Origin: Fimbriimonadaceae bacterium
GTDB lineage: Bacteria; Armatimonadota; Fimbriimonadia; Fimbriimonadales; Fimbriimonadaceae
NCBI GenBank assembly: GCA_019187105.1
Contig: JABAQM010000001.1
Location: 3,068,734-3,132,733, forward strand
Direction: 5' to 3'
DNA: 64,000 nt
The stretch's first letter is position 1. Every line of letters begins with the position of its first letter. Below, piece after piece: positions 28,365 to 40,625 of this stretch. The notes beneath the pieces are model-generated. The model made no database searches and had not been told where the DNA came from. It saw only the letters and a list, made by a program, of their open reading frames with translations. Position numbers and translations under genes: made by a program.

Positions 28365-30332
28365 ATGTCGCTAGCTGCGGGCGCCAAGCCAACCACAAAA
28401 CTCGATTTCCTACGACTCATGATGCTCAGCCGAGAAGGCGATCGCCGCGAAGGCATCCTGCTCCGGCAGAGCAAAGGTTGGTTTCAGGTCAGCGGCATGG
28501 GGCATGAGGCGCTCGCCGCGATCGAGATGTCGCTTAGGCCCGATGACTGGATTTTCCCCTACTACCGATCTCGAGCCCTAATGCTCGCTCGGGGTCTCTC
28601 GAACTTCGACCTCGCCCTGGCATACTTCGCCAAGCGAGAAAGCAGTTCTGGTGGGCGGCAAATGCCGGGCCACTACTCCAGCCGAGAGCACAACATTTTT
28701 AGCGTATGCACGCCCACAGGAGGCTCCCTCATTCCCGCGTGCGGCACGGCATGGGCCATGAAGCTCAGCGGCAAGGATTCGCTCTGTGTGGCAAGCGTTG
28801 GCGACGCGGCATCGCGGCAAGGCGAGTTCTATGAGGCAATCGCATTCGCAATCCAGGAAAATCTGCCCGTTGTCTTCATGATCGAAGACAACAAGTACGG
28901 AATTTCTACGCCGACCGACAAGTTCTTTGCCTATAACATCGGCGGCATTCTCAGCAACGACCATATGGTCAAGGTGGACGGCCGGTATGTCGACAAAGTC
29001 GATGCTGCCTTTCGAGACGCTGCGGAAAAGGCTAGGAGCGGAAAAGGCCCAACGATACTCTGGTGCGATATCGATCGCCTTTCAAGCCACACGTCCAGCG
29101 ACGATCACCGCGTCTATCGGGCCCAAGAAGACATCGATGCCATGGTGCTTCGAGATCCGATCGTCCTCCTTAAACATGAGCTGATTGGAGCCGGCGATCT
29201 TACCGAGGCAGAATTTGACCGGATTCAAGTAGAGGTGGCAAAGCAAGTCGACGAGGACTACCTGCGAGCCGAAAAAGCTCCCGACCCCGTCGCCGGAGAA
29301 GTGTACGACCATTGCTGGGGTGGCGAGCGGCCTGCCGAACGGCCCCCCATCGAAATCGGGCCAATGACGATGGTCGAGAGCATCAACAAGACGTTTCGCA
29401 AGGCGCTGGAAAACGATCCCGAGGTCATTTTCTTCGGAGAAGACATCGAAGATCCCAAAGGCGGCGTCTTCGGACTTACCAAGGGATTGTCCGAGGCGTT
29501 TCCGAAGCAGGTCTTCAATTCGCCGCTTGCCGAGGCCACCATCATCGGCGCTGCCGTTGGCATGTCGGCTTATGGTATGAAGCCGGTTTTTGAGCTCCAG
29601 TTCATCGATTTCATCTGCCCCGCGTGGAATCAGATTGTCACCAACCTGAGCACCCTTCGGTGGCGCAGCTTTGGCCATTGGAAGTGCCCGATGGTTGTCT
29701 ATGCTCCTTATGGCGCATATCTGCCCGGAGGCTCTCTATGGCACAGCCAGGCATACGAAGCGGGACTAGCTCATGTTCCTGGCCTAAAAATCGCGATCCC
29801 TTCGACGCCGGAAGACGCTGCTGGTCTTTTTTGGACGGCCATGCAGGGCGACGACCCGACATTCATCCTCATTCCCAAACACATCTTCCGAAAGCGAGTG
29901 TCGGTCGATTCAGTCGAACCGGTTCCATTTGGCAAGGCAAAGCTGCTTCGGGAGGGAAGCGATGTGACGCTCGTTACCTGGGGCAATACGATCGAGCTTG
30001 CCGAGGAAGTCGCCGATCAAATGGCCGGGGAAACCAGTATCGAGATTATCGATCTGCGCTCGATTGTGCCATGCGACTTTGAAACCATCTCAAAATCGGT
30101 TGAGAAGACGGGCCGACTGGTGGTTCTCCACGAAGACACCAGGACCTGCGGCTTTGGGCAGTCCATCTTGGCCGAAATGACGGGAATTCCGGAACGCTTC
30201 AACCTGTTCCTGGCACCACCTCAGTTGGTCGCGAGGGAAGACGTGCATATCGGCTACAACCCGATCTATGAATATGCCGCGCTGCCTGATATCGAGCGCG
30301 TCAAGCAGGCTGTCAACGTTACGCTTGCTTAA
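28365..30332 (+). CDS. 2-oxoacid (branched-chain type) dehydrogenase E1, fused alpha and beta subunits
   Basis: A thiamine-diphosphate enzyme that decarboxylates 2-oxoacids and passes the acyl group to an E2 lipoyl protein. I chose ATG 28365 because a likely -10 element and the rpoC terminator lie before it; the frame is open to 28065, with another ATG at 28278. The alpha part (about residues 1-330) has GMGHEALAA, the ThDP motif region GDAASRQGEFYEAIAFA (GDA rather than GDG) and EDNKYGIS. The beta part (from about 345) has FFGEDIEDPKGGVFGLTKGL and FNSPLAEATIIGAAVGM. About 655 residues is typical of fused E1 proteins. No E2 or E3 gene is nearby, so its partners are encoded elsewhere. Confidence 0.88.
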   Translation: MSLAAGAKPTTKLDFLRLMMLSREGDRREGILLRQSKGWFQVSGMGHEALAAIEMSLRPDDWIFPYYRSRALMLARGLSNFDLALAYFAKRESSSGGRQMPGHYSSREHNIFSVCTPTGGSLIPACGTAWAMKLSGKDSLCVASVGDAASRQGEFYEAIAFAIQENLPVVFMIEDNKYGISTPTDKFFAYNIGGILSNDHMVKVDGRYVDKVDAAFRDAAEKARSGKGPTILWCDIDRLSSHTSSDDHRVYRAQEDIDAMVLRDPIVLLKHELIGAGDLTEAEFDRIQVEVAKQVDEDYLRAEKAPDPVAGEVYDHCWGGERPAERPPIEIGPMTMVESINKTFRKALENDPEVIFFGEDIEDPKGGVFGLTKGLSEAFPKQVFNSPLAEATIIGAAVGMSAYGMKPVFELQFIDFICPAWNQIVTNLSTLRWRSFGHWKCPMVVYAPYGAYLPGGSLWHSQAYEAGLAHVPGLKIAIPSTPEDAAGLFWTAMQGDDPTFILIPKHIFRKRVSVDSVEPVPFGKAKLLREGSDVTLVTWGNTIELAEEVADQMAGETSIEIIDLRSIVPCDFETISKSVEKTGRLVVLHEDTRTCGFGQSILAEMTGIPERFNLFLAPPQLVAREDVHIGYNPIYEYAALPDIERVKQAVNVTLA

Positions 30333-30393
30333 CGCCGTCTGAGCCTGGCTCCCCGCATTGATACTGGGATTGTGTTTTTTTTTGCAGGCTTTA

Positions 30394-30422
30394 TTGACAG
30401 CTAGCCAGGATTCTGTTATGTT
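30394..30422 (+). promoter_or_regulatory. Sigma-70-like promoter of the first PEP-CTERM gene
   Basis: TTGACA at 30394-30399 and TATGTT at 30417-30422 are separated by 17 bp. The site is 60 bp upstream of the start codon of the PEP-CTERM gene. Confidence 0.6.
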
Positions 30423-30482
30423 CTCTCAGACTCGGGCGGGACAAGCCCCTGGCTATTTCCAAAGGAGATTAGGAGACAGAGA

Positions 30483-31172
30483 ATGAACAAGAAAACTTTC
30501 GCAGCAATCATGCTCGTCATGGGCGTTGCTTCGGCAAACGCAGTTAAGCTGATGGATCAGATCGGCATCGCCACCGGCGGCGGCTACGTCACCGGTAACG
30601 GCAACCACGAAGATGGCTCGGGGCTCTTTGGTTCCTACCTCGACCTTCGCGTCGCCGACGACTTCAAGGTCACCGGCGGTCCTTACACGCTCACCTCGGT
30701 CAAGGTCGGCAACCTCGGCTTCGGTGGCGGCAACGCGATGGCTCGCGTTCGAATCTACGCCGACAGCGGCACCCTTCCCGGTGCTGAGCTCTTCTCGGGC
30801 ACGTTCGCGATCAGCAGCGCTGGCTTCGTTGACAGCGTTTTCGGCCTCGTTGGCAACGTCCACACCGCTGACGTCAGTGGCGCTGGCTGGGTCCTTGGAC
30901 CGGGCAGCTACTGGGTCAACATGCAGACGGTTAGCCCTGGAGACTGGGAGTACACCGCTCGATCGAGCTCGGTGACCGGTGACGACAGCGCTCTCGGCGA
31001 CGGCCCCAACGGCGGCGGCGGCTATGGCTTCCCGCTGTGGATGAATGCCGGTGCAGCAGGCTTCGGCGCAGGCGACTCGGCCTATGAAGTCAACGGCGAC
31101 CTCGTTCCTGAGCCCGCCACGATGATCGCTCTCGGCCTCGGCGCCGCTGCGATGATCCGACGACGACGCAAA
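30483..31172 (+). repeat. Tandem gene repeat, unit 1
   Basis: The coding sequence here and at 31395-32084 appears identical base for base except in the last sense codon (AAA versus AAG). The flanks differ apart from a shared GCTATTTCCAAAGGAGA stretch before each start. The repeat spacing is 912 bp. Confidence 0.9.
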
Positions 31173-31175
31173 TAA
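30483..31175 (+). CDS. PEP-CTERM sorting-domain protein, copy 1
   Basis: This 230-residue exported protein has a signal peptide (residues 1-20, ending SANA) and a C-terminal PEP-CTERM tail: VPEPATMIALGLGAAA, then the basic MIRRRRK. Such tails are recognised by exosortase and removed at the membrane. The middle part is Gly/Asp/Ser-rich and predicted beta, with a segment FKVTGGPYTLTSVKVG that recalls choice-of-anchor type domains. A strong Shine-Dalgarno (AAGGAG) and a sigma-70 promoter precede it. The gene is duplicated immediately downstream with an identical protein sequence. No exosortase gene is in the window. Confidence 0.88.
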   Translation: MNKKTFAAIMLVMGVASANAVKLMDQIGIATGGGYVTGNGNHEDGSGLFGSYLDLRVADDFKVTGGPYTLTSVKVGNLGFGGGNAMARVRIYADSGTLPGAELFSGTFAISSAGFVDSVFGLVGNVHTADVSGAGWVLGPGSYWVNMQTVSPGDWEYTARSSSVTGDDSALGDGPNGGGGYGFPLWMNAGAAGFGAGDSAYEVNGDLVPEPATMIALGLGAAAMIRRRRK

Positions 31176-31200
31176 CCGATCTTTAGCGATCAACCAACCT

Positions 31201-31234
31201 CGACCCCCGGGTTTCTCGGGGGTCGTTTTCTTTT
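31201..31234 (+). terminator. Rho-independent terminator after PEP-CTERM copy 1
   Basis: Stem CGACCCCCG / CGGGGGTCG with loop GGTTTCT, followed by TTTTCTTTT. The two gene copies therefore have separate transcription ends. Confidence 0.88.
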
Positions 31235-31394
31235 GGGGGAAGGGATTAGTGACCTTAATATTGCTGGCTAGGATTGGTACCGGATTTCAGCCACGACGGG
31301 CGGAAATCGTACTCAACGGCGCGCTTTTTGACATAAGATAGATTCAGCTTACTGGGGGTAACCATCCCTGAGCTATTTCCAAAGGAGAACGGAT

Positions 31395-32084
31395 ATGAAC
31401 AAGAAAACTTTCGCAGCAATCATGCTCGTCATGGGCGTTGCTTCGGCAAACGCAGTTAAGCTGATGGATCAGATCGGCATCGCCACCGGCGGCGGCTACG
31501 TCACCGGTAACGGCAACCACGAAGATGGCTCGGGGCTCTTTGGTTCCTACCTCGACCTTCGCGTCGCCGACGACTTCAAGGTCACCGGCGGTCCTTACAC
31601 GCTCACCTCGGTCAAGGTCGGCAACCTCGGCTTCGGTGGCGGCAACGCGATGGCTCGCGTTCGAATCTACGCCGACAGCGGCACCCTTCCCGGTGCTGAG
31701 CTCTTCTCGGGCACGTTCGCGATCAGCAGCGCTGGCTTCGTTGACAGCGTTTTCGGCCTCGTTGGCAACGTCCACACCGCTGACGTCAGTGGCGCTGGCT
31801 GGGTCCTTGGACCGGGCAGCTACTGGGTCAACATGCAGACGGTTAGCCCTGGAGACTGGGAGTACACCGCTCGATCGAGCTCGGTGACCGGTGACGACAG
31901 CGCTCTCGGCGACGGCCCCAACGGCGGCGGCGGCTATGGCTTCCCGCTGTGGATGAATGCCGGTGCAGCAGGCTTCGGCGCAGGCGACTCGGCCTATGAA
32001 GTCAACGGCGACCTCGTTCCTGAGCCCGCCACGATGATCGCTCTCGGCCTCGGCGCCGCTGCGATGATCCGACGACGACGCAAG
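31395..32084 (+). repeat. Tandem gene repeat, unit 2
   Basis: Second unit of the near-perfect 690-bp duplication described for 30483-31172. Confidence 0.9.
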
Positions 32085-32087
32085 TAA
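31395..32087 (+). CDS. PEP-CTERM sorting-domain protein, copy 2
   Basis: The protein is identical to the copy at 30483: 230 residues, signal peptide, Gly-rich beta region, PEP-CTERM tail ending MIRRRRK. It has its own Shine-Dalgarno (AAGGAGA, 7-8 bp before ATG), its own upstream region, with TTGACA at 31328 but no clear -10 at the right distance, and its own terminator. The two copies could thus be expressed under different conditions. The near-perfect identity implies very recent duplication or ongoing gene conversion. Confidence 0.88.
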   Translation: MNKKTFAAIMLVMGVASANAVKLMDQIGIATGGGYVTGNGNHEDGSGLFGSYLDLRVADDFKVTGGPYTLTSVKVGNLGFGGGNAMARVRIYADSGTLPGAELFSGTFAISSAGFVDSVFGLVGNVHTADVSGAGWVLGPGSYWVNMQTVSPGDWEYTARSSSVTGDDSALGDGPNGGGGYGFPLWMNAGAAGFGAGDSAYEVNGDLVPEPATMIALGLGAAAMIRRRRK

Positions 32088-32113
32088 GCAGAACAAATCG
32101 TCTGAACAATATC

Positions 32114-32148
32114 TGGCTCCTCGCCTAAAGCGGGGGGCCAATTTTTTG
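32114..32148 (+). terminator. Rho-independent terminator after PEP-CTERM copy 2
   Basis: An imperfect GC-rich hairpin (GGCTCCTCGC / GCGGGGGGCC around TAAA) is followed by AATTTTTTG. Confidence 0.75.
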
Positions 32149-32161
32149 TAAACTGCTATCG

Positions 32162-33277
32162 TTGAGCCATTCGCCGGTCGCGGTCTATATCCACACCCCG
32201 TTCTGCCCAAGTAAGTGCGGCTACTGCGACTTTAACTCGTTCGCGATGACGGGGGCGATCGTCGATCGCACCGTAGATGCCATCTGTCGCCAGATCCGCG
32301 AGAGCGGCTGGCGCGGTCGCCCCGCAAAGACTGTCTTCATCGGCGGCGGAACGCCGACCTACCTTTCCGCCGAACAGCTCTGCTCGATCTTGGCGGCAGT
32401 CCAAGATTCCCATCCGACGGACGAACAAACGGAGATAACCTCCGAAGCCAATCCCGGCACGGTCGACCTCGCCAAGCTGACCGCCATGCGAAGGGCAGGA
32501 TTCAACCGACTGAGCCTTGGCGCCCAGAGCTTCGACCGCGGCGATCTCGTCCGGCTGGGCCGCGTCCACGATGACCTTGCCATCGTCAGCGCGGTCTATG
32601 AGGCGCGCGAAGCCGGCTTCGAAAACCTCAACCTCGACCTCATGTTTGGCTTGCCCGGCCAGTCGATTGCCGCTTGGCAAAGGAATTTGGACGTTGCTCT
32701 TGGCTTGGCCCCCGACCACCTGAGTCTCTATGGGCTGACCATCGAACCCAATACGCGCTTCTTTCGCTACGACCGCCGGGGAATGCTGAACTTGCCCGGC
32801 GAGGAAGAACAGGTGCACATGTACGACCTGGCCACGAAGACCTGCGCGGCCGCGGGCCTTAGCGCTTACGAGATATCGAACTTTGCCAAGGAAGGGAAGG
32901 AATGCCGGCATAACCTTGCCTACTGGAAGGGTGAGGAGTATCTGGCTTATGGTCCCGGGGCAGTGGGTTGCGTGGATTCCGGCGCCCAGACGCGGCTTCG
33001 GTTTACGAACATCAAGCATCCTGAGCGCTATTGCGAAGCGATTGAGAATCGAGCCGATCCTTGGTTCGATAAGGAGACGATCGACGAACGCACCCTCCAC
33101 ATGGAGCGCGTGATGCTCGGACTTCGCCTCTCGGCAGGGATTCCCATGGCTTGGGCCGAACATCAGGCGGTGGCCCAGATGGTCGGCCGCGGGTGGTTGG
33201 AGCAGACCGAAGATCGCGTCGCGCTGACTCCCCAGGGCCGCCACTTCTGTTCGGAAGTCACCGCCTCGCTGATCTAA
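32162..33277 (+). CDS. hemW: Radical SAM heme chaperone HemW (coproporphyrinogen oxidase-like)
   Basis: This 371-residue radical-SAM protein has the CxxxCxxC cluster as C15, C19 and C22 in TPFCPSKCGYCDFN. GGGTPTYLS and EANPGTVD follow, and the C-terminal HemN-like domain includes ISNFAKEGKECRHNLAYWKGEEYLAYGPGA in part. HemW lacks the extra cysteine of the true oxygen-independent coproporphyrinogen oxidase HemN and is thought to deliver heme to target proteins. The only plausible start is the TTG at 32162; no Shine-Dalgarno is obvious, which suggests weak or leaderless initiation. Confidence 0.9.
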   Translation: MSHSPVAVYIHTPFCPSKCGYCDFNSFAMTGAIVDRTVDAICRQIRESGWRGRPAKTVFIGGGTPTYLSAEQLCSILAAVQDSHPTDEQTEITSEANPGTVDLAKLTAMRRAGFNRLSLGAQSFDRGDLVRLGRVHDDLAIVSAVYEAREAGFENLNLDLMFGLPGQSIAAWQRNLDVALGLAPDHLSLYGLTIEPNTRFFRYDRRGMLNLPGEEEQVHMYDLATKTCAAAGLSAYEISNFAKEGKECRHNLAYWKGEEYLAYGPGAVGCVDSGAQTRLRFTNIKHPERYCEAIENRADPWFDKETIDERTLHMERVMLGLRLSAGIPMAWAEHQAVAQMVGRGWLEQTEDRVALTPQGRHFCSEVTASLI

Positions 33278-34133: not shown

Positions 34134-34679
34134 TTAATCATCTGCCTCAGGAAAGATGTCGCTATTCCTGCGATACTGCTCACCGAATAAATGCCGACGG
34201 AGATCCTTGCTGATTTCTGGCTGATGTGACTTTGTTCCTCGGCCAACATCCGAGGGCAAGAATACTCGTTCCGGAGTCACCTCCGAAAGTCCGGCAAGAA
34301 AGACGGAATAGTACTTCTCACATGCTAATATGTCCCTGCGTATAATTTCGCGTCGGAGTTCTGGAGATATGGAAGCCTCGTCATCGTACGCTCTAAGACT
34401 ATCAAGTACCCTGGATCGCCGATCGCAAAACGTTGAAAGGGGTGCGTTGAGGGCGCATTCTCGGAGGTCTTGCCTGTATGGGTACGTTGGAGTGAATTCA
34501 CTAAAATCAATGCCGGAGTCCATGTCAAATTGGGCACCAAAGGTATAACGCCGTAGATGCAGATACAGCCGAACTCTTCCCAAGTCCTTATACCAATACT
34601 TTCGAAGTTTACGAAATCCCAGCTCTCTGCTTAGGCCCTCGAAGGTTGTTCGAACCGTATCGGAATCGACGGGCTTCAT
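34134..34679 (-). CDS. Putative immunity protein for the type-B Rhs toxin
   Basis: The frame is open to 34724; I chose ATG 34679 because it aligns with the start of a paralogue at 46602 on the other strand (shared: RKxxKYWxxDxxxxRLYLHLRxYTF, DSGxDFxEYxPxYPxRxDLxECAL, SVTPERVxLPxD, DLRxHLFGxxY). The protein (about 181 residues) has no signal peptide. It directly follows an Rhs tip carrying the type-B toxin, and its paralogue follows a truncated tip of the same type. This pairing is the basis for calling it immunity. Its base composition is clearly more AT-rich than neighbouring housekeeping genes. The family is not one I recognise. Confidence 0.7.
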   Translation of the reverse strand: MKPVDSDTVRTTFEGLSRELGFRKLRKYWYKDLGRVRLYLHLRRYTFGAQFDMDSGIDFSEFTPTYPYRQDLRECALNAPLSTFCDRRSRVLDSLRAYDDEASISPELRREIIRRDILACEKYYSVFLAGLSEVTPERVFLPSDVGRGTKSHQPEISKDLRRHLFGEQYRRNSDIFPEADD

Positions 34680-34704
34680 GAGTGGCTTACCCGCGGACAG
34701 AAGA

Positions 34705-35424
34705 TCATGGCAAAGGTGGGCCATTGACGACGCTTACTTTACCGCCAACCACTTTATACCAAACGATTACGCCGTGCTCAGCGTCATTCTCAATCATATA
34801 GCGAATAAGTTGTCGCTGGTACTTTCGAATTGTCTTGGGGTTACTTGTGATCATCTTGAAGTCCAGAACGGCGCCTTCCTTCGGATCGAAGATGTCCGGT
34901 CGTCCACGGCCAAAAAGGCTTTTTAGGTTGTACCTCACGCCAGGCGGATTGCCGTGCAAGGCTTTGTATGCAGCGGTTAGTTGCCTATGCGCTTCCTGCC
35001 CCTGGAGCATCCTCTTGACGCCCTTTGACAGGGCCTTCACGATGGTGCCACCGCCTACGACTGCCAGGACCAGGAATAGGCCGTTCTGAATCGACGGGTC
35101 ATCGATGAATTCGTTTATCGAAGTCATGAAGTCGTAGGTGCACCATGCCCGCCAAGCGGCAACCCCCCACAAGACCAACGGAACAGCTAAGGGAATTTGC
35201 CCCGTCGGGTCGGCATTCGTCAGCGGGCTGTTCCCGCAGTAGGCGTACCAGTTGCCCCCATCCCGAGCCTTATCCCGGCTCAGGAAGCGACCCGCGGACG
35301 GGTCGTAGTAGCGGTGCCCCAGAAGCTGAAGTCCCGAATCCGGTTCCGACTGGTACCCAAACGCCCCGCCATACCCAAACGGCCGACCACGAACCCGAGG
35401 AGGCAACGGTCTGCCCATAGGCAT
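34705..35424 (-). CDS. Orphan Rhs-core fragment with type-B C-terminal toxin (PD-(D/E)XK-like)
   Basis: The first 85 or so residues are the end of an Rhs core: FGYGGAFGYQSEP, LQLLGHRYYDPSAGRFLSRD, then the junction motif NADPTG. After the junction the protein is unrelated to other tips: a hydrophobic stretch, then GRGRPDIFDPKEGAVLDFKM. The spacing of RPD and DFK resembles the PD-(D/E)XK nuclease motif. The core upstream is in another frame because two bases are missing at about 35392 (TCGGCCG instead of TCGGGGCCG), and no proper start or promoter is seen. This looks like a silent cassette that could replace the tip of the full Rhs gene by recombination. Confidence 0.72.
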   Translation of the reverse strand: MPMGRPLPPRVRGRPFGYGGAFGYQSEPDSGLQLLGHRYYDPSAGRFLSRDKARDGGNWYAYCGNSPLTNADPTGQIPLAVPLVLWGVAAWRAWCTYDFMTSINEFIDDPSIQNGLFLVLAVVGGGTIVKALSKGVKRMLQGQEAHRQLTAAYKALHGNPPGVRYNLKSLFGRGRPDIFDPKEGAVLDFKMITSNPKTIRKYQRQLIRYMIENDAEHGVIVWYKVVGGKVSVVNGPPLP

Positions 35425-35735
35425 CGTAAGTCCGCGAAGCGGAAATAGTCTGCGACGACGTCGATTGCGCGTCGATGTTCTTTAGGCCGTAGTGCTGATA
35501 GCGCGTATCCGAACCAGTCCGAACCGACACGCCCGGCGTGAAGTGGGACACGCCGTCGCCCAGCACCGGCGCGGTAACCCCCGCCCCTGCACGGCGATAC
35601 GTCCGCGAGCCGAAGCTACCCGACGCCGAGACCCGCGTATCCAGCCCGTTGTAGACGTAAGCCGACGACCCCCCTGCCCGGGTACGAAATCGAGGTCACT
35701 CGGTCTTCGCAGTCATAGGCAGAACGCGGCTGTCC
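35270..35735 (-). pseudogene. Frameshifted Rhs-core remnant upstream of the type-B tip
   Basis: Rhs core sequence continues upstream of the type-B cassette in broken frames: DGVSHFTPGVSVRTGSDTRYQ, then AQSTSSQTISASRTYDAYGQ up to the two-base deletion near 35392. Further upstream, EDRVTSISYPG is separated from YNGLDTRVSASGSF by an extra G in a GGGGGG run near 35670. The similarity to the full gene stops near 35735. The 170 bp from there to the next gene shows nothing recognisable. Confidence 0.75.
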
Positions 35736-35918
35736 CGATGCCCAATCACGTTTGACGACACCTAGCACCGACTGCAATGAAAGTGCAACTGGGGTTGGCC
35801 CACGCCAAGACGACGCTGGACCAGTGTCTGCCCAGTTTCGAACGGTGAAGGGGATCGTCCGCCGGACGGCGATGAACGCTTCGTTCCGACTCCCGATTCT
35901 TCGGAGCCCGCCTCCAAC

Positions 35919-36581
35919 TCATGAGTTATCTTCCAAAGTCGCTAAGAATTCCTCAAGCGAGTATATATGGCCCTCAGAAAATTCTGTAGGTTGCTGACCC
36001 TGCCGCGCTTGACGGACATAGTCTTCAACGGACGTAAACATGGGGTCAATGTATCCGAAGTATGCATTAACGAGATAATCGGACATCTCAAGAGGAATAA
36101 TTGAGAACCAGGTTGCCTGTGCCATGCCTATCCGACGTACAGAAATCCAACGGATCACGTCTTCGTCGCTTCTTATAGAGTTAAGGAACGTGATCCCCAA
36201 TTCTGAGATTTCCTTAACGAGGCGACTAATAACCGCAGAGGGGTTTACCAACGTATTGAAAGACCATGTCGACTTCGATCCAGAACCAACTTCAAAATTC
36301 AGCCTAGCGCGAAGTATGTCGAGATCCATTCTGATTTGCGCCGTCATATAGGATGGTTTTAGGTTGTCCCGATTGATCCAGCCAAACAACTTCTTTGAAA
36401 GAACCGCAACTTCGGGCATCACGTACAAAGTTCCAGCCTCGGCTAAAAAGATTGGTGCTATATAATGAATGACTTCGTTCACCTCCCGTACATAGACATC
36501 ACCTTCCAGGAAGAACCCAATTGGGTTAAGCTTTTCGTTTAACTCATCAAGTATCTTGGATTTCAAGGGACTCTTGGTCAT
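35919..36581 (-). CDS. DUF4304-like putative immunity protein for the type-A Rhs toxin
   Basis: This 220-residue cytoplasmic protein starts in a 4-bp ATGA overlap with the stop of the complete Rhs gene, the position expected of an immunity gene. Its N-terminus, LNEKLNPIGFFLEGDVYVREVNEVIHYI, follows the DUF4304 pattern (an 'xPxGFxxxGxxYxRxxxxVxHxI' style). The same pattern recurs in 43102-43704 and 47819-48280. Later conserved features shared with 43102 are VRRIGMAQATWFS against IRKIGLPLITWFS. It presumably binds and blocks the adjacent nuclease tip. Sequence composition is AT-rich compared with the core. Confidence 0.72.
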   Translation of the reverse strand: MTKSPLKSKILDELNEKLNPIGFFLEGDVYVREVNEVIHYIAPIFLAEAGTLYVMPEVAVLSKKLFGWINRDNLKPSYMTAQIRMDLDILRARLNFEVGSGSKSTWSFNTLVNPSAVISRLVKEISELGITFLNSIRSDEDVIRWISVRRIGMAQATWFSIIPLEMSDYLVNAYFGYIDPMFTSVEDYVRQARQGQQPTEFSEGHIYSLEEFLATLEDNS

Positions 36582-39500
36582 GGTACTCGGACAAGGACGA
36601 TAATTATGCCCTGGGCCCTCAGCCAGTTGTCCTTCATTTCTTGCAAAGTGCCATGATACCTAGAAGTCCCTGACTTGACTTCGACGAAGACAGTTTTGCC
36701 GTCAGCCCGAGTATATTTCAGGTCAAGGAGACGCTTACCCCATGGAGTGTCAAAGTAGTTGAGCTTATCGGTGGCATCTTTGTACCCCTTCTTTATTAGG
36801 CCCTGCAGTACGGCTTTTTCGGCCAGCTTTCCTTTGGTGAGATTCTTTTGGATGAGAGCCAGCGGCTTGGCAGCAGGCGCTAGTACCTTGGGAAGAAGTC
36901 TAGCTACGCCTCTCGCTACGAGACCACCAGGCACAAGACATGAGGCAAGCAGAATCCAACCCTTTGGGTCGTCAGGGTTCTCCATAATCTCGTTTAGAGC
37001 CCACGCGCAAGTGCCGCCTGCAATGAATGCTCCTGCAAGGAGGAAGAAGAATGTCCCCGTCGGGTCCGCACGCGTCAGCGGCCCATTCCCGCAGTACACG
37101 TACCAGTTGCCTCCGTCTCTCGCCTTATCCCGGCTCAGGAAGCGACCCGCGGACGGGTCGTAGTAGCGGTGGCCTAGCAGTTGCAGACCCGAATCCGGTT
37201 CGGACTGGTACCCAAACGCCCCGCCATACCCAAACGGCCCCGACCACGAACCCGAGGAGGCAACCGTCTGGCCGAAGGCGTCGTAAGTCCGCGTGGCCGA
37301 AATCGACTGAGAGCCGGACGACTGGGCGTCGATGTTCTTGAGCCCAGCGTGCTGATAGCGCGTATCCGAACCCGTCCGCACCGACACGCCCGGCGTGAAG
37401 TGGGACACGCCGTCGCCCAAGACCGGCGCGGTGACACCCGCCCCAGCTCGGCGATACGTCCTGGAGCCGAAGGATCCGGACGCCGACACCCGCGTATCGA
37501 GGCCGTTGTAGCCGTAAGTCGATGACCCGCTGCCCGGGTACGAGACCGAGGTCACGCGGTCTTCGAAATCGTAGGCAAACGTGGTCGTCCCGGCCGCCGT
37601 GGTGACGCCGGTGGTTCGTCCGGCGAGGTCCAGCGTGTACTCCCGGACCGGATTCCCGTTAACGGAAATCGAAACCAGCTCGTCCCGCTCGTTGGTGGCA
37701 TAGGTCTCCGTCACGCTGCCGACGGTCCGCGTCAGGCGGTTGCCGTTGGCGTCGTAGGTGTAGCCCGCGGCATAGCCACTGCGTGTTTCCGAAGTCAGCT
37801 GCCCGATGGCATCGTGCGTAAACGACGTCGAAACCCCATCGACCAGGGACGAGGTCATCCGCCCCGCCGAGTCGAACGCATACGCCACCGAGCGCAGCAC
37901 CGCCTGGGCGTCGTTCTTCAGCACGACCGAATTCATCCGGCCGCGGTCGTCGTAGCCAAACTCCTCGCGGGCGCCGCTGCCGAACTTGGTCCACGCGGGC
38001 CGCAATCCGGCGTCATAGCCATGCTCGGTGATCTCGCCGTGGGGGTTGGTCACCTTTTCCAAGAGGCCGTGAGCGGCCCCATACTCGTGCAGCGTCTCGC
38101 CGATGCCGGGCTCGATGACCTTCTTCAGCTTGCCGCCGTCGTCGTCAAGGTACTCATAGTTCACCGTGCCCTGCGGCGCGGCGAAGGTGGTCAGCTCATC
38201 GGCGGCGTTAAAGGTCCAGCTGCTCGTCCCCGACCCATCGACCATCGAAAGCGGCCGGTCCCAATGGTCATAGGTGACCACGGTGTCGGTCCCGGTGGGA
38301 TAATCGACCTTCCACATCCGGTCGGCATCGTCGTAGAGGTAGGCGATGGTCTCAGAGAGCGGGTTGGTGTAGGCGGTGACATTGCCGTTGCCGTCAAACG
38401 ACCACTCCTCGATTGCCGCCGGCGTGCCGGGCAGCGTCAACCTATAGGCGTCCCCTCGAGCCGTGTAGTCGTAGGAGCGCGTGTACCCGCGCGCATTCTC
38501 GATCGCCGTCAACCAGCCGTTGCTGTTGTAGGTGAACTCGGTGGTCTTGCCTTCGGCGTTGGTGACGGTCTTGATCGCGTCGGCTTCGTCATACGTCGCC
38601 ACCGTCTGATGGAGCATCGGATCGGTTACGGACAGGACGTTGTCTTCGTAGTCGTAGGTGATCAGGGTGTCGTCTTCGAAACCCAGTCCCCAGGTCCGCT
38701 GGAGGATAGGTCGGCCCCAGGTGTCGTACTCGAACTGCTGATTGGGATTGATCGTGTCGCCGATGGTAACGGGCTTCCCATACCGGTCGTAGGTGATCGT
38801 CGCGGTCGACCCACCGGGCGGAGTCATCTCGACCAGATCACCGTCTGCGTTGATCGTGATTTCTGTCGTGCGGTTCTTCGAATCGATAACCTTGTCGAGT
38901 TCGCCGTTGCCGTCCAGGAAGGTCTCGGCGAAGGTGCGCCCAAGCTGGTCGACCACCTTCTTGACCTGGCCGTTCGCGTGATAGTGGTAGGTAATCGGCG
39001 TGGTCTCGTTATGGCGGAGCACGGTCTCGACCTCATTGGTCGACTTGTAGGTGATCGTGGTGACGTGAGACAGCGGATCGGTCGCCGTCAGCAGGTTGCC
39101 GTTGCTATAGGTGTAGTTCCACTGCTCTTGGTTGCGATCGATGACTTGCGTGACATTGCGGTCGGTATCGTACAGGTACGACTCGCTGTAGCTCCCGCTG
39201 CCGGTATTGGGGTCGACCACCGATGCGAGCTTGCCGGCAGAGTAATTATGGGTCCACTGCTGGCCACCCGGGACGGTAATGACGGTGTTCGTCGCCGAGT
39301 ACGTGAACTGGAAGGTGTAGGGCGGATCGGCTGGGTGCGGCGTAGTGATCTTCGTGCACTTGCTCGCCGCGTATTCGTACTTCCAGATCTTCCCGTTACG
39401 GTTGGTATGCCACAGAATGTCACCCTGGGTGTTGACGATGAAGTCGTGGAATCGCCGCACCCCGAATTCGCCGGGAAGCTGCGGATACTTGATCTTCTTT

Positions 39501-40528
39501 AGGTAGCCCGAGTTGTATTCGAACAGCCAGTCCCGGTCGGGCGTGCCGTAATTGCCGGCGACGCGAGTAAGCAGACCGCTCTCCGAGTCGTATTCAAACG
39601 TCAGCTTTCGAGGATGCAGGGCCGATGCGCAGCGGACCTCTTCGACCCGGTTCTGCCCATCGCGAAATACGCTGGTTGCGTATCCATTACGATCTTCGAT
39701 CGCGACCAGAAAGCCCCCCGTGTTGAATTGAAACTTCGTCTGGGATTTCGCGGTTAGCGTCCAGGTGTTGTCCTGGTTCTTCACCAAGGTCTCGAAGAAT
39801 CCCGGCGGCCGGTTGAAGGCGCCGTTGCCGCCCTCACTATAGGGCACGGTGAGGCCGTCGCCCCAGCGGACGATCGCCGAGGAGCCAGGCGTGTGGCTCA
39901 CCTTCATGTCGTAGGTGTGGCTCCACCCGGCGCTCATGTTGGCGCCGGCATAGCTGCCGATGGAGTTGTGATAGAGGGTGAGGCTGACACCGGTTTGGCC
40001 GCGGCTGGGCCAATCGACGAGGTGGATCGCGGTGAGCTTGTTCCCGGTATGGGTGTTGACGCCGCCCGGTCCCCATCCGACGCCCGGGTTGCCCGACCCA
40101 TTCGGCCCTTGGCCCGGGAGCGGGGGGCCGCCCGGTCCGCCCGAGCCTTCGCCGCCGATGGGCGGTCCGGAGCCGTTGCCGCCGCCGCCATCGAGTCCGG
40201 CCATGCCAAGCTCCCAGAAGCCGGCCATCCAGATGCTCTCGCCGCGACGGATGGCCTCGGCGAATTCAACGTTGCGCAGGTCGTTCAGGAGGCGCGGCGT
40301 CCATAGCCCACCGCGCGTTTCTGGTTCACGGCCGGGGTTCTTGCCGAGGAATATCGGGCCAGGAGCGGTCGTGTAAGTCTTTCGTTTGGCCGTTTGCGCT
40401 TTGGTGGCAGCGGTTAGGATCGAGTCGATCACCCCTGCGCTGGATTGCATCACCATGCACAAGCTCATGCCAATAGCCGTCGCCCGCATGATCAACGAAG
40501 AGTTCGCTTGGCCCCTGAACATTTCCAT
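36578..40528 (-). CDS. Full-length Rhs/YD-repeat polymorphic toxin with type-A nuclease tip
   Basis: The frame is open to 40567; ATG 40528 follows GGAGGAAAG and starts a signal-like segment (residues 10-30), giving 1316 residues. A Gly/Pro-rich linker lies at about 105-150, then DUF6531-like and about fifteen YD repeats (YDxxGR type: YTYSNGNLLTATDPLSH, EFTYNSNGWLTAI). The core ends with LGHRYYDPSAGRFLSRD and RADPTG at about residue 1156. The variable tip (about 160 residues) contains KGKLAEKAVLQGL, RLLDLKY and VFVEVKSG, a PD-(D/E)XK-type arrangement. Such proteins encapsulate and deliver toxins to competing cells. A consensus promoter lies 98 bp upstream and the immunity gene overlaps its stop. 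Confidence 0.9.
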   Translation of the reverse strand: MEMFRGQANSSLIMRATAIGMSLCMVMQSSAGVIDSILTAATKAQTAKRKTYTTAPGPIFLGKNPGREPETRGGLWTPRLLNDLRNVEFAEAIRRGESIWMAGFWELGMAGLDGGGGNGSGPPIGGEGSGGPGGPPLPGQGPNGSGNPGVGWGPGGVNTHTGNKLTAIHLVDWPSRGQTGVSLTLYHNSIGSYAGANMSAGWSHTYDMKVSHTPGSSAIVRWGDGLTVPYSEGGNGAFNRPPGFFETLVKNQDNTWTLTAKSQTKFQFNTGGFLVAIEDRNGYATSVFRDGQNRVEEVRCASALHPRKLTFEYDSESGLLTRVAGNYGTPDRDWLFEYNSGYLKKIKYPQLPGEFGVRRFHDFIVNTQGDILWHTNRNGKIWKYEYAASKCTKITTPHPADPPYTFQFTYSATNTVITVPGGQQWTHNYSAGKLASVVDPNTGSGSYSESYLYDTDRNVTQVIDRNQEQWNYTYSNGNLLTATDPLSHVTTITYKSTNEVETVLRHNETTPITYHYHANGQVKKVVDQLGRTFAETFLDGNGELDKVIDSKNRTTEITINADGDLVEMTPPGGSTATITYDRYGKPVTIGDTINPNQQFEYDTWGRPILQRTWGLGFEDDTLITYDYEDNVLSVTDPMLHQTVATYDEADAIKTVTNAEGKTTEFTYNSNGWLTAIENARGYTRSYDYTARGDAYRLTLPGTPAAIEEWSFDGNGNVTAYTNPLSETIAYLYDDADRMWKVDYPTGTDTVVTYDHWDRPLSMVDGSGTSSWTFNAADELTTFAAPQGTVNYEYLDDDGGKLKKVIEPGIGETLHEYGAAHGLLEKVTNPHGEITEHGYDAGLRPAWTKFGSGAREEFGYDDRGRMNSVVLKNDAQAVLRSVAYAFDSAGRMTSSLVDGVSTSFTHDAIGQLTSETRSGYAAGYTYDANGNRLTRTVGSVTETYATNERDELVSISVNGNPVREYTLDLAGRTTGVTTAAGTTTFAYDFEDRVTSVSYPGSGSSTYGYNGLDTRVSASGSFGSRTYRRAGAGVTAPVLGDGVSHFTPGVSVRTGSDTRYQHAGLKNIDAQSSGSQSISATRTYDAFGQTVASSGSWSGPFGYGGAFGYQSEPDSGLQLLGHRYYDPSAGRFLSRDKARDGGNWYVYCGNGPLTRADPTGTFFFLLAGAFIAGGTCAWALNEIMENPDDPKGWILLASCLVPGGLVARGVARLLPKVLAPAAKPLALIQKNLTKGKLAEKAVLQGLIKKGYKDATDKLNYFDTPWGKRLLDLKYTRADGKTVFVEVKSGTSRYHGTLQEMKDNWLRAQGIIIVLVRVP
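37291..37591 (-). repeat. 301-bp inverted repeat, left arm (inside full-length rhs core)
   Basis: The reverse complement of this segment is identical, as far as I can read, to 42073-42373. It covers the core from TTFAYDFEDRVTS to QSISAT. The match ends abruptly on both sides. Confidence 0.85.
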
Positions 40529-40625
40529 CTTTCCTCCGATTCCTCTGATTACCGACCCAGCGGTCACCAGGCGTTATGCCTGATCGTGAACCTATGACCG
40601 CAATTCCCTGTCGATAGTAGCGGGC

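Follow-up and report, generated by a model that had tools for sequence, protein, structure and literature searches.

Two neighbouring PEP-CTERM genes of a Fimbriimonadaceae bacterium are the same over nearly their entire coding length, and the likely explanation is an older tandem duplication whose coding parts were later homogenised by homologous recombination, either as gene conversion or as unequal crossing-over with contraction. The observed basis for homogenisation is fourfold: the identity itself, the boundaries at which it stops, a contrast at silent sites, and a mosaic tract in another gene pair of the same genome.

Two gene copies and their flanks

The two genes lie head-to-tail in the window, by which we mean the whole stretch of 64,000 nt that was analysed. 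The features on which the argument draws are as follows.

30394..30422, + strand: promoter-like site of copy 1, TTGACA-17-TATGTT, 10/12, a consensus match only
30434..30468, + strand: leader of copy 1, ending in an exact 17-mer at 30452-30468; 77% over 35 nt against the copy 2 leader
30483-31175, + strand: copy 1, PEP-CTERM gene, 693 bp, 230 aa (open reading frame list, PF07589, TIGR02595)
31176..31394, + strand: spacer, 219 nt, resembling neither the flank upstream of copy 1 (leader excepted) nor that downstream of copy 2
31201..31225, + strand: terminator-like stem-loop after copy 1, with a T-run
31354..31388, + strand: leader of copy 2, whose 3' end is the exact 17-mer at 31372-31388; 77% over 35 nt against the copy 1 leader
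31395-32087, + strand: copy 2, PEP-CTERM gene, 693 bp, 230 aa; 692/693 nt as copy 1
32114..32140, + strand: terminator-like stem-loop after copy 2, with a T-run and unlike that of copy 1

An earlier note on this DNA had claimed near-identical tandem PEP-CTERM genes that differ only in the last sense codon, and both points hold: the open reading frames lie where it had placed them, and the sole nucleotide difference is A at 31172 versus G at 32084, a silent exchange of AAA for AAG before the TAA stop, such that the two proteins are identical. The copies start 912 nt apart, and their likeness breaks off abruptly, as the base preceding the ATG and the base following the stop both differ between them. 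No conversion tract is visible within the pair, a single difference being too few to reveal one. Antisense frames on the - strand, at 30453-31193 (246 aa) and 31344-32210 (288 aa), span the two copies and are probably a by-product of codon usage.

The flanks had been described as unrelated save for a stretch of 17 bp at the ribosome-binding site. The 17-mer is indeed exact, and contains a Shine-Dalgarno-like AAAGGAGA, but it sits inside the longer, weaker leader match. Upstream similarity rests on this leader: the alignment score of the upstream flanks is reached by 0/500 dinucleotide shuffles under both scoring schemes, and by 159/500 and 18/500 under the two schemes once the last 30 nt are removed. 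For the sequence upstream of the 17-mer, one scheme returns the shuffle level (172/500) and the other a marginal value (11/500), so that some faint similarity further upstream is possible. Downstream, local scores over 100 nt reveal no similarity (177/500 and 324/500 dinucleotide shuffles reach them under the two schemes), and a global alignment of 60 nt stands weakly above simple shuffles (z = 2.2). Common descent of the flanks is thus demonstrated for the leader only.

We rejected the 17-mer as a genome-wide element of PEP-CTERM genes: a search of the 3.3-Mb genome for its 15-nt core finds exact matches in the two leaders of this pair and nowhere else, and with up to two mismatches it finds seven places, these leaders among them, against four for a reversed control. 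A core found exactly at the window pair alone makes the leader look like a relic of common origin. Rfam gave no match over 30300-32300 up to an E of 1.

The proposal that the two genes have different promoters and terminators survives in part. Each gene is followed by its own T-run stem-loop, although two such structures in the region are no excess over the 1.7 found in shuffled sequence. Copy 1 has a candidate sigma-70-like site (one found, 0.5 expected), but the promoter scan of the region found none for copy 2, leaving unsupported the suggestion that one product has two promoters so that its expression can be flexible or high.

Silent sites and comparable gene pairs

Silent sites carry much of the case. 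None of 143 fourfold sites differs between copies 1 and 2, whereas copy 1 differs at 48/97 such sites from its closest paralogue in the same genome (at 1146 kb, 70% nt identity), a contrast that a general freezing of silent sites does not explain. The chance of seeing 0/143 is 1.4e-14 at 20% silent divergence, 6.5e-4 at 5%, 0.056 at 2% and 0.24 at 1%; the count is therefore compatible with silent sites that have diverged by about 2% at most, not 5%, and the copies are homogeneous down to about that level. Silent sites that are the same between copies and free to vary within the family are one mark of a concertedly evolving pair, and the window pair bears it.

Neighbouring PEP-CTERM genes elsewhere show how unusual this identity is. 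Our survey covered 39 neighbouring pairs from 32 clusters, picked by eye as lying on the same strand with tails within about 1.35 kb, in a non-random sample comprising the bacterium's own genome and six relatives hand-picked for few contigs and list size. Coding identity at the nucleotide level exceeds 95% in two of the 39 pairs, both in the own genome, with the window pair as the extreme; 37/39 fall below 95% and 36/39 below 80%. Since most pairs lie so far below the window pair, neighbours usually diverge and homogenisation is occasional. Start codons were set by rule of thumb, and the flank scores of the survey depend on them. A candidate pair at 473 kb in the own genome was left out, its second member being absent from the Pfam list; a second motif within one long frame of genome G018 was dropped; and the own-genome cluster at 3165 kb includes a tail below cut-off. 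The 33 stretches fetched were the 32 clusters plus one around the 1146-kb paralogue (L135), which was not used.

The second highly similar pair belongs to a trio of tandem PEP-CTERM genes at 2446-2448 kb (L132, G000 C1:2444700-2449000). Its genes 2 and 3, at 2447-2448 kb, share 97.1% nt identity, their 18 differences in 612 nt being clustered at both ends around an identical core of 391 nt, and on the stop-codon side the match continues into the terminator. A run of this length was reached by 0/2000 permutations, whether of all sites or of silent codons; the same tests show nothing for the trio's first pair (699 and 456 of 2000). In all, permutation tests were applied to 14 comparisons, with all-site and silent-codon counts out of 2000 given here in that order. 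Two further tandem pairs look mosaic on both: in G007 (L105) the genes are 0.859 alike overall with an identical last tenth (0 and 7/2000), and in G010 (L108) 0.672 alike, again with an identical last tenth (0 and 0/2000). The tests disagree for two other G010 pairs (L107, 2 and 715/2000; L109, 452 and 0/2000) and for two G005 pairs (10 and 199/2000; 2 and 161/2000). Copy 1 compared with the non-tandem 1146-kb paralogue gave 17/2000 for all sites and 52/2000 for silent codons, and the low all-site value means that uneven constraint alone can lower the identical-run test.

The two G005 pairs, four genes at two loci (L117, C2:42900-46700; L122, C4:263500-267000), present a different distribution of likeness: signal peptide, tail and some flanks are about 0.9 alike and the middle of the protein has diverged. 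Likeness amounts to 0.87-0.91 in the tenth at either end of the coding sequence and to 0.48-0.71 in the middle, and to 0.90-0.92 over the 60 nt upstream and 0.67 and 0.93 over the 60 nt downstream.

In G040, from another family of the same order, a pair is 94.8% identical over the 179 codons available, and permutation tests find no tracts in it (133 and 1439/2000, with the start of gene G040B set by a fixed offset). A separate contig has a third copy and, at its end, the start of a further one. The ends of contigs C82 and C69 (L009 and L021) fall inside near-identical tandem PEP-CTERM genes, which would fit a three-gene array broken by assembly. The spacers in G040 are still similar, so this array could just be of more recent origin.

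In a tree of 20 homologues, with 6/16 inner branches well supported, the window copies join the own-genome 1146-kb paralogue (100/100), and the G040 copies, three in all, form a group of their own (99/98); the own-genome homologue at 1059 kb joins one from G016 instead. Such a topology fits lineage-specific expansion and homogenisation alike. Among the relatives searched, no close-relative orthologue was found at the same gene position, and none of the 60 was a same-genus genome.

Accounts of the identity

In the account that we favour, a PEP-CTERM gene would have been duplicated in tandem long ago, and its noncoding flanks would have diverged nearly past recognition save for a leader of 35-40 nt. 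Recombination, presumably of the RecA type, between direct repeats of 690 nt would then have copied one coding sequence over the other, so recently that they differ at just one silent site; the tract would end at the start and stop codons because homology ends there. Homologous recombination is expected between adjacent direct repeats of this size. The earlier note had opted more narrowly for gene conversion limited to the coding part. Homogenisation is backed by the silent sites, the mosaic pair and the survey, but conversion proper is inseparable from unequal crossing-over: judged from one genome the two would look the same, and both would leave unique flanks.

Unequal crossing-over taken by itself, by which the tandem array would have passed to three copies and contracted again, equalising the coding parts and keeping outer flanks and spacer, is a possibility to which we give some, though clearly lesser, weight. 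PEP-CTERM arrays with three and with four members occur in the own genome (at 2446-2448 kb and 948-951 kb), which together with the G040 contig ends indicates that copy number in such arrays varies; this route needs two events, however, and the sequence gives it no preference over conversion. We consider it improbable that the identity is an artefact of assembly or polishing, whereby copies truly some percent apart were given one consensus or one copy is spurious. Near-identical neighbouring repeats are a typical place for such errors, but a spurious copy is unlikely to carry its own leader and terminator, the 97.1% pair in the same assembly retains its differences, and the window lies within a 3.30-Mb contig of a two-contig genome. 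Slightly less probable still is a simple recent tandem duplication with flanks later altered by indels or insertions. Adjacent copies in the same orientation would suit it, yet it requires new flanking sequence on both sides, reaching to the very start and stop codons, within the time in which the coding sequence gained one substitution, and no duplication border is visible. As had been argued from the outset, duplication copies a block together with its borders; the spacer neither starts like the sequence downstream of copy 2 nor, leader excepted, ends like that upstream of copy 1, and on these grounds we rejected it.

The protein, its locus and what the pair may mean

The encoded protein ends in a PEP-CTERM tail (PF07589, 28.2 bits against a cut-off of 20.7; TIGR02595, 27.3 bits against 16), and by eye begins with MNKK, a hydrophobic stretch and ANA, resembling a signal peptide. 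PEP-CTERM proteins are sorted to the cell envelope by exosortase, of which the genome has a sole match (PF09721, 154.5 bits, C1:2143417-2144187). The window protein is thus like other members of the PEP-CTERM/exosortase system: it has the tail, and its genome combines one exosortase with 56 PEP-CTERM matches, 51 of them over cut-off. Such proteins are present in 40/41 genomes of the family sample. The window protein is probably secreted and sorted by exosortase, which would place it at the surface. The middle of the protein was not assigned a choice-of-anchor R domain (NF041539), scoring 22.4 bits against a curated cut-off of 30; a paralogue (L003) scores 26.1 and a G040 copy (L009) 19.3, and the G016 homologue (L010) is unlisted for this model at an E of 0.01. 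Single-sequence structure prediction was unusable (mean pLDDT 33.6), and solved structures gave no match up to an E of 1.

The pair is preceded by a fused dehydrogenase E1 gene and followed by a radical-SAM gene with a HemN C-terminal domain, which we take to be HemW. Relatives of the E1 protein, at 70-78% identity, were found in Fimbriimonadaceae bacterium, Chthonomonas sp. and Armatimonadetes bacterium (11/12 loci), the twelfth, at 34%, being from an acidobacterium. Neither the window PEP-CTERM protein nor HemW was detected at these 12 loci (tblastn, E up to 1e-4; flanks of up to 6 kb, some shortened by contig ends). Likewise, neither E1 nor the window protein was detected within 1.5 kb of HemW at 29 non-self loci (same program and limit), which cover 29 of the 57 non-self genomes where HemW has a match. 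A protein scan of genome contigs gave 59 pattern matches, none of them a relative.

Further along the window, on the - strand, is an RHS-repeat protein gene (36578-40567, within a locus at 34705-40567). An apparent displaced copy of its C-terminal core, bearing another tail, lies at 34705-35424 and in neighbouring frames (- strand); two direct repeats of 185 nt (89%) and 289 nt (85%) link it to the gene, and frames without a Pfam match lie beside them at 35919-36581 and 34134-34724. The arrangement looks akin to the orphan-tail cassettes known from polymorphic toxin loci.

Homogenisation of gene copies is a known, ordinary process. For instance, PMC5485169 describes tufA and tufB of Salmonella as near-identical in their coding parts, with conversion bounded by the gene and, as cited there, greatly reduced in recA strains. 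The window pair is similar in that identity ends at the gene bounds, but the tuf genes, of 1185 nt, lie 762 kb apart in inverse orientations and are highly expressed (PMC5485169), whereas the window copies are adjacent and known from sequence alone. More broadly, 26 prokaryotic genes in long-lasting concerted evolution are described in PMC6053082, where high similarity of paralogues at silent and replacement sites is ascribed to recurrent conversion; independent duplication is named there as an alternative for a tandem fla pair and argued against for a tandem mtrA pair. Those cases were shown with orthologues across species, unlike the window pair, for which no close orthologue was found. For PEP-CTERM/exosortase systems, PMC1569441 reports rapid paralogous expansion and a greater likeness of PEP-CTERM regions inside a species than across species, and it places PEP-CTERM sets among the fastest to evolve in the genomes that carry them. 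In the open-access literature, which excludes most subscription papers, we found nothing linking PEP-CTERM with gene conversion or with Fimbriimonas.

It is conceivable, albeit highly speculative, that tandem PEP-CTERM arrays of Fimbriimonadaceae act as recombination engines, some keeping the exposed middle identical, as in the window pair, and others preserving the 5' flank along with the signal peptide and sorting tail as the middle diversifies, as in G005. If true, recombination in arrays would be a switch between dosage and antigen-like variation. The window pair provides a clean, small case of homogenisation ending at coding boundaries, in an abundant and little-studied family of surface proteins from an understudied phylum, and cautions against concluding from coding sequence alone that near-identical PEP-CTERM neighbours duplicated recently.
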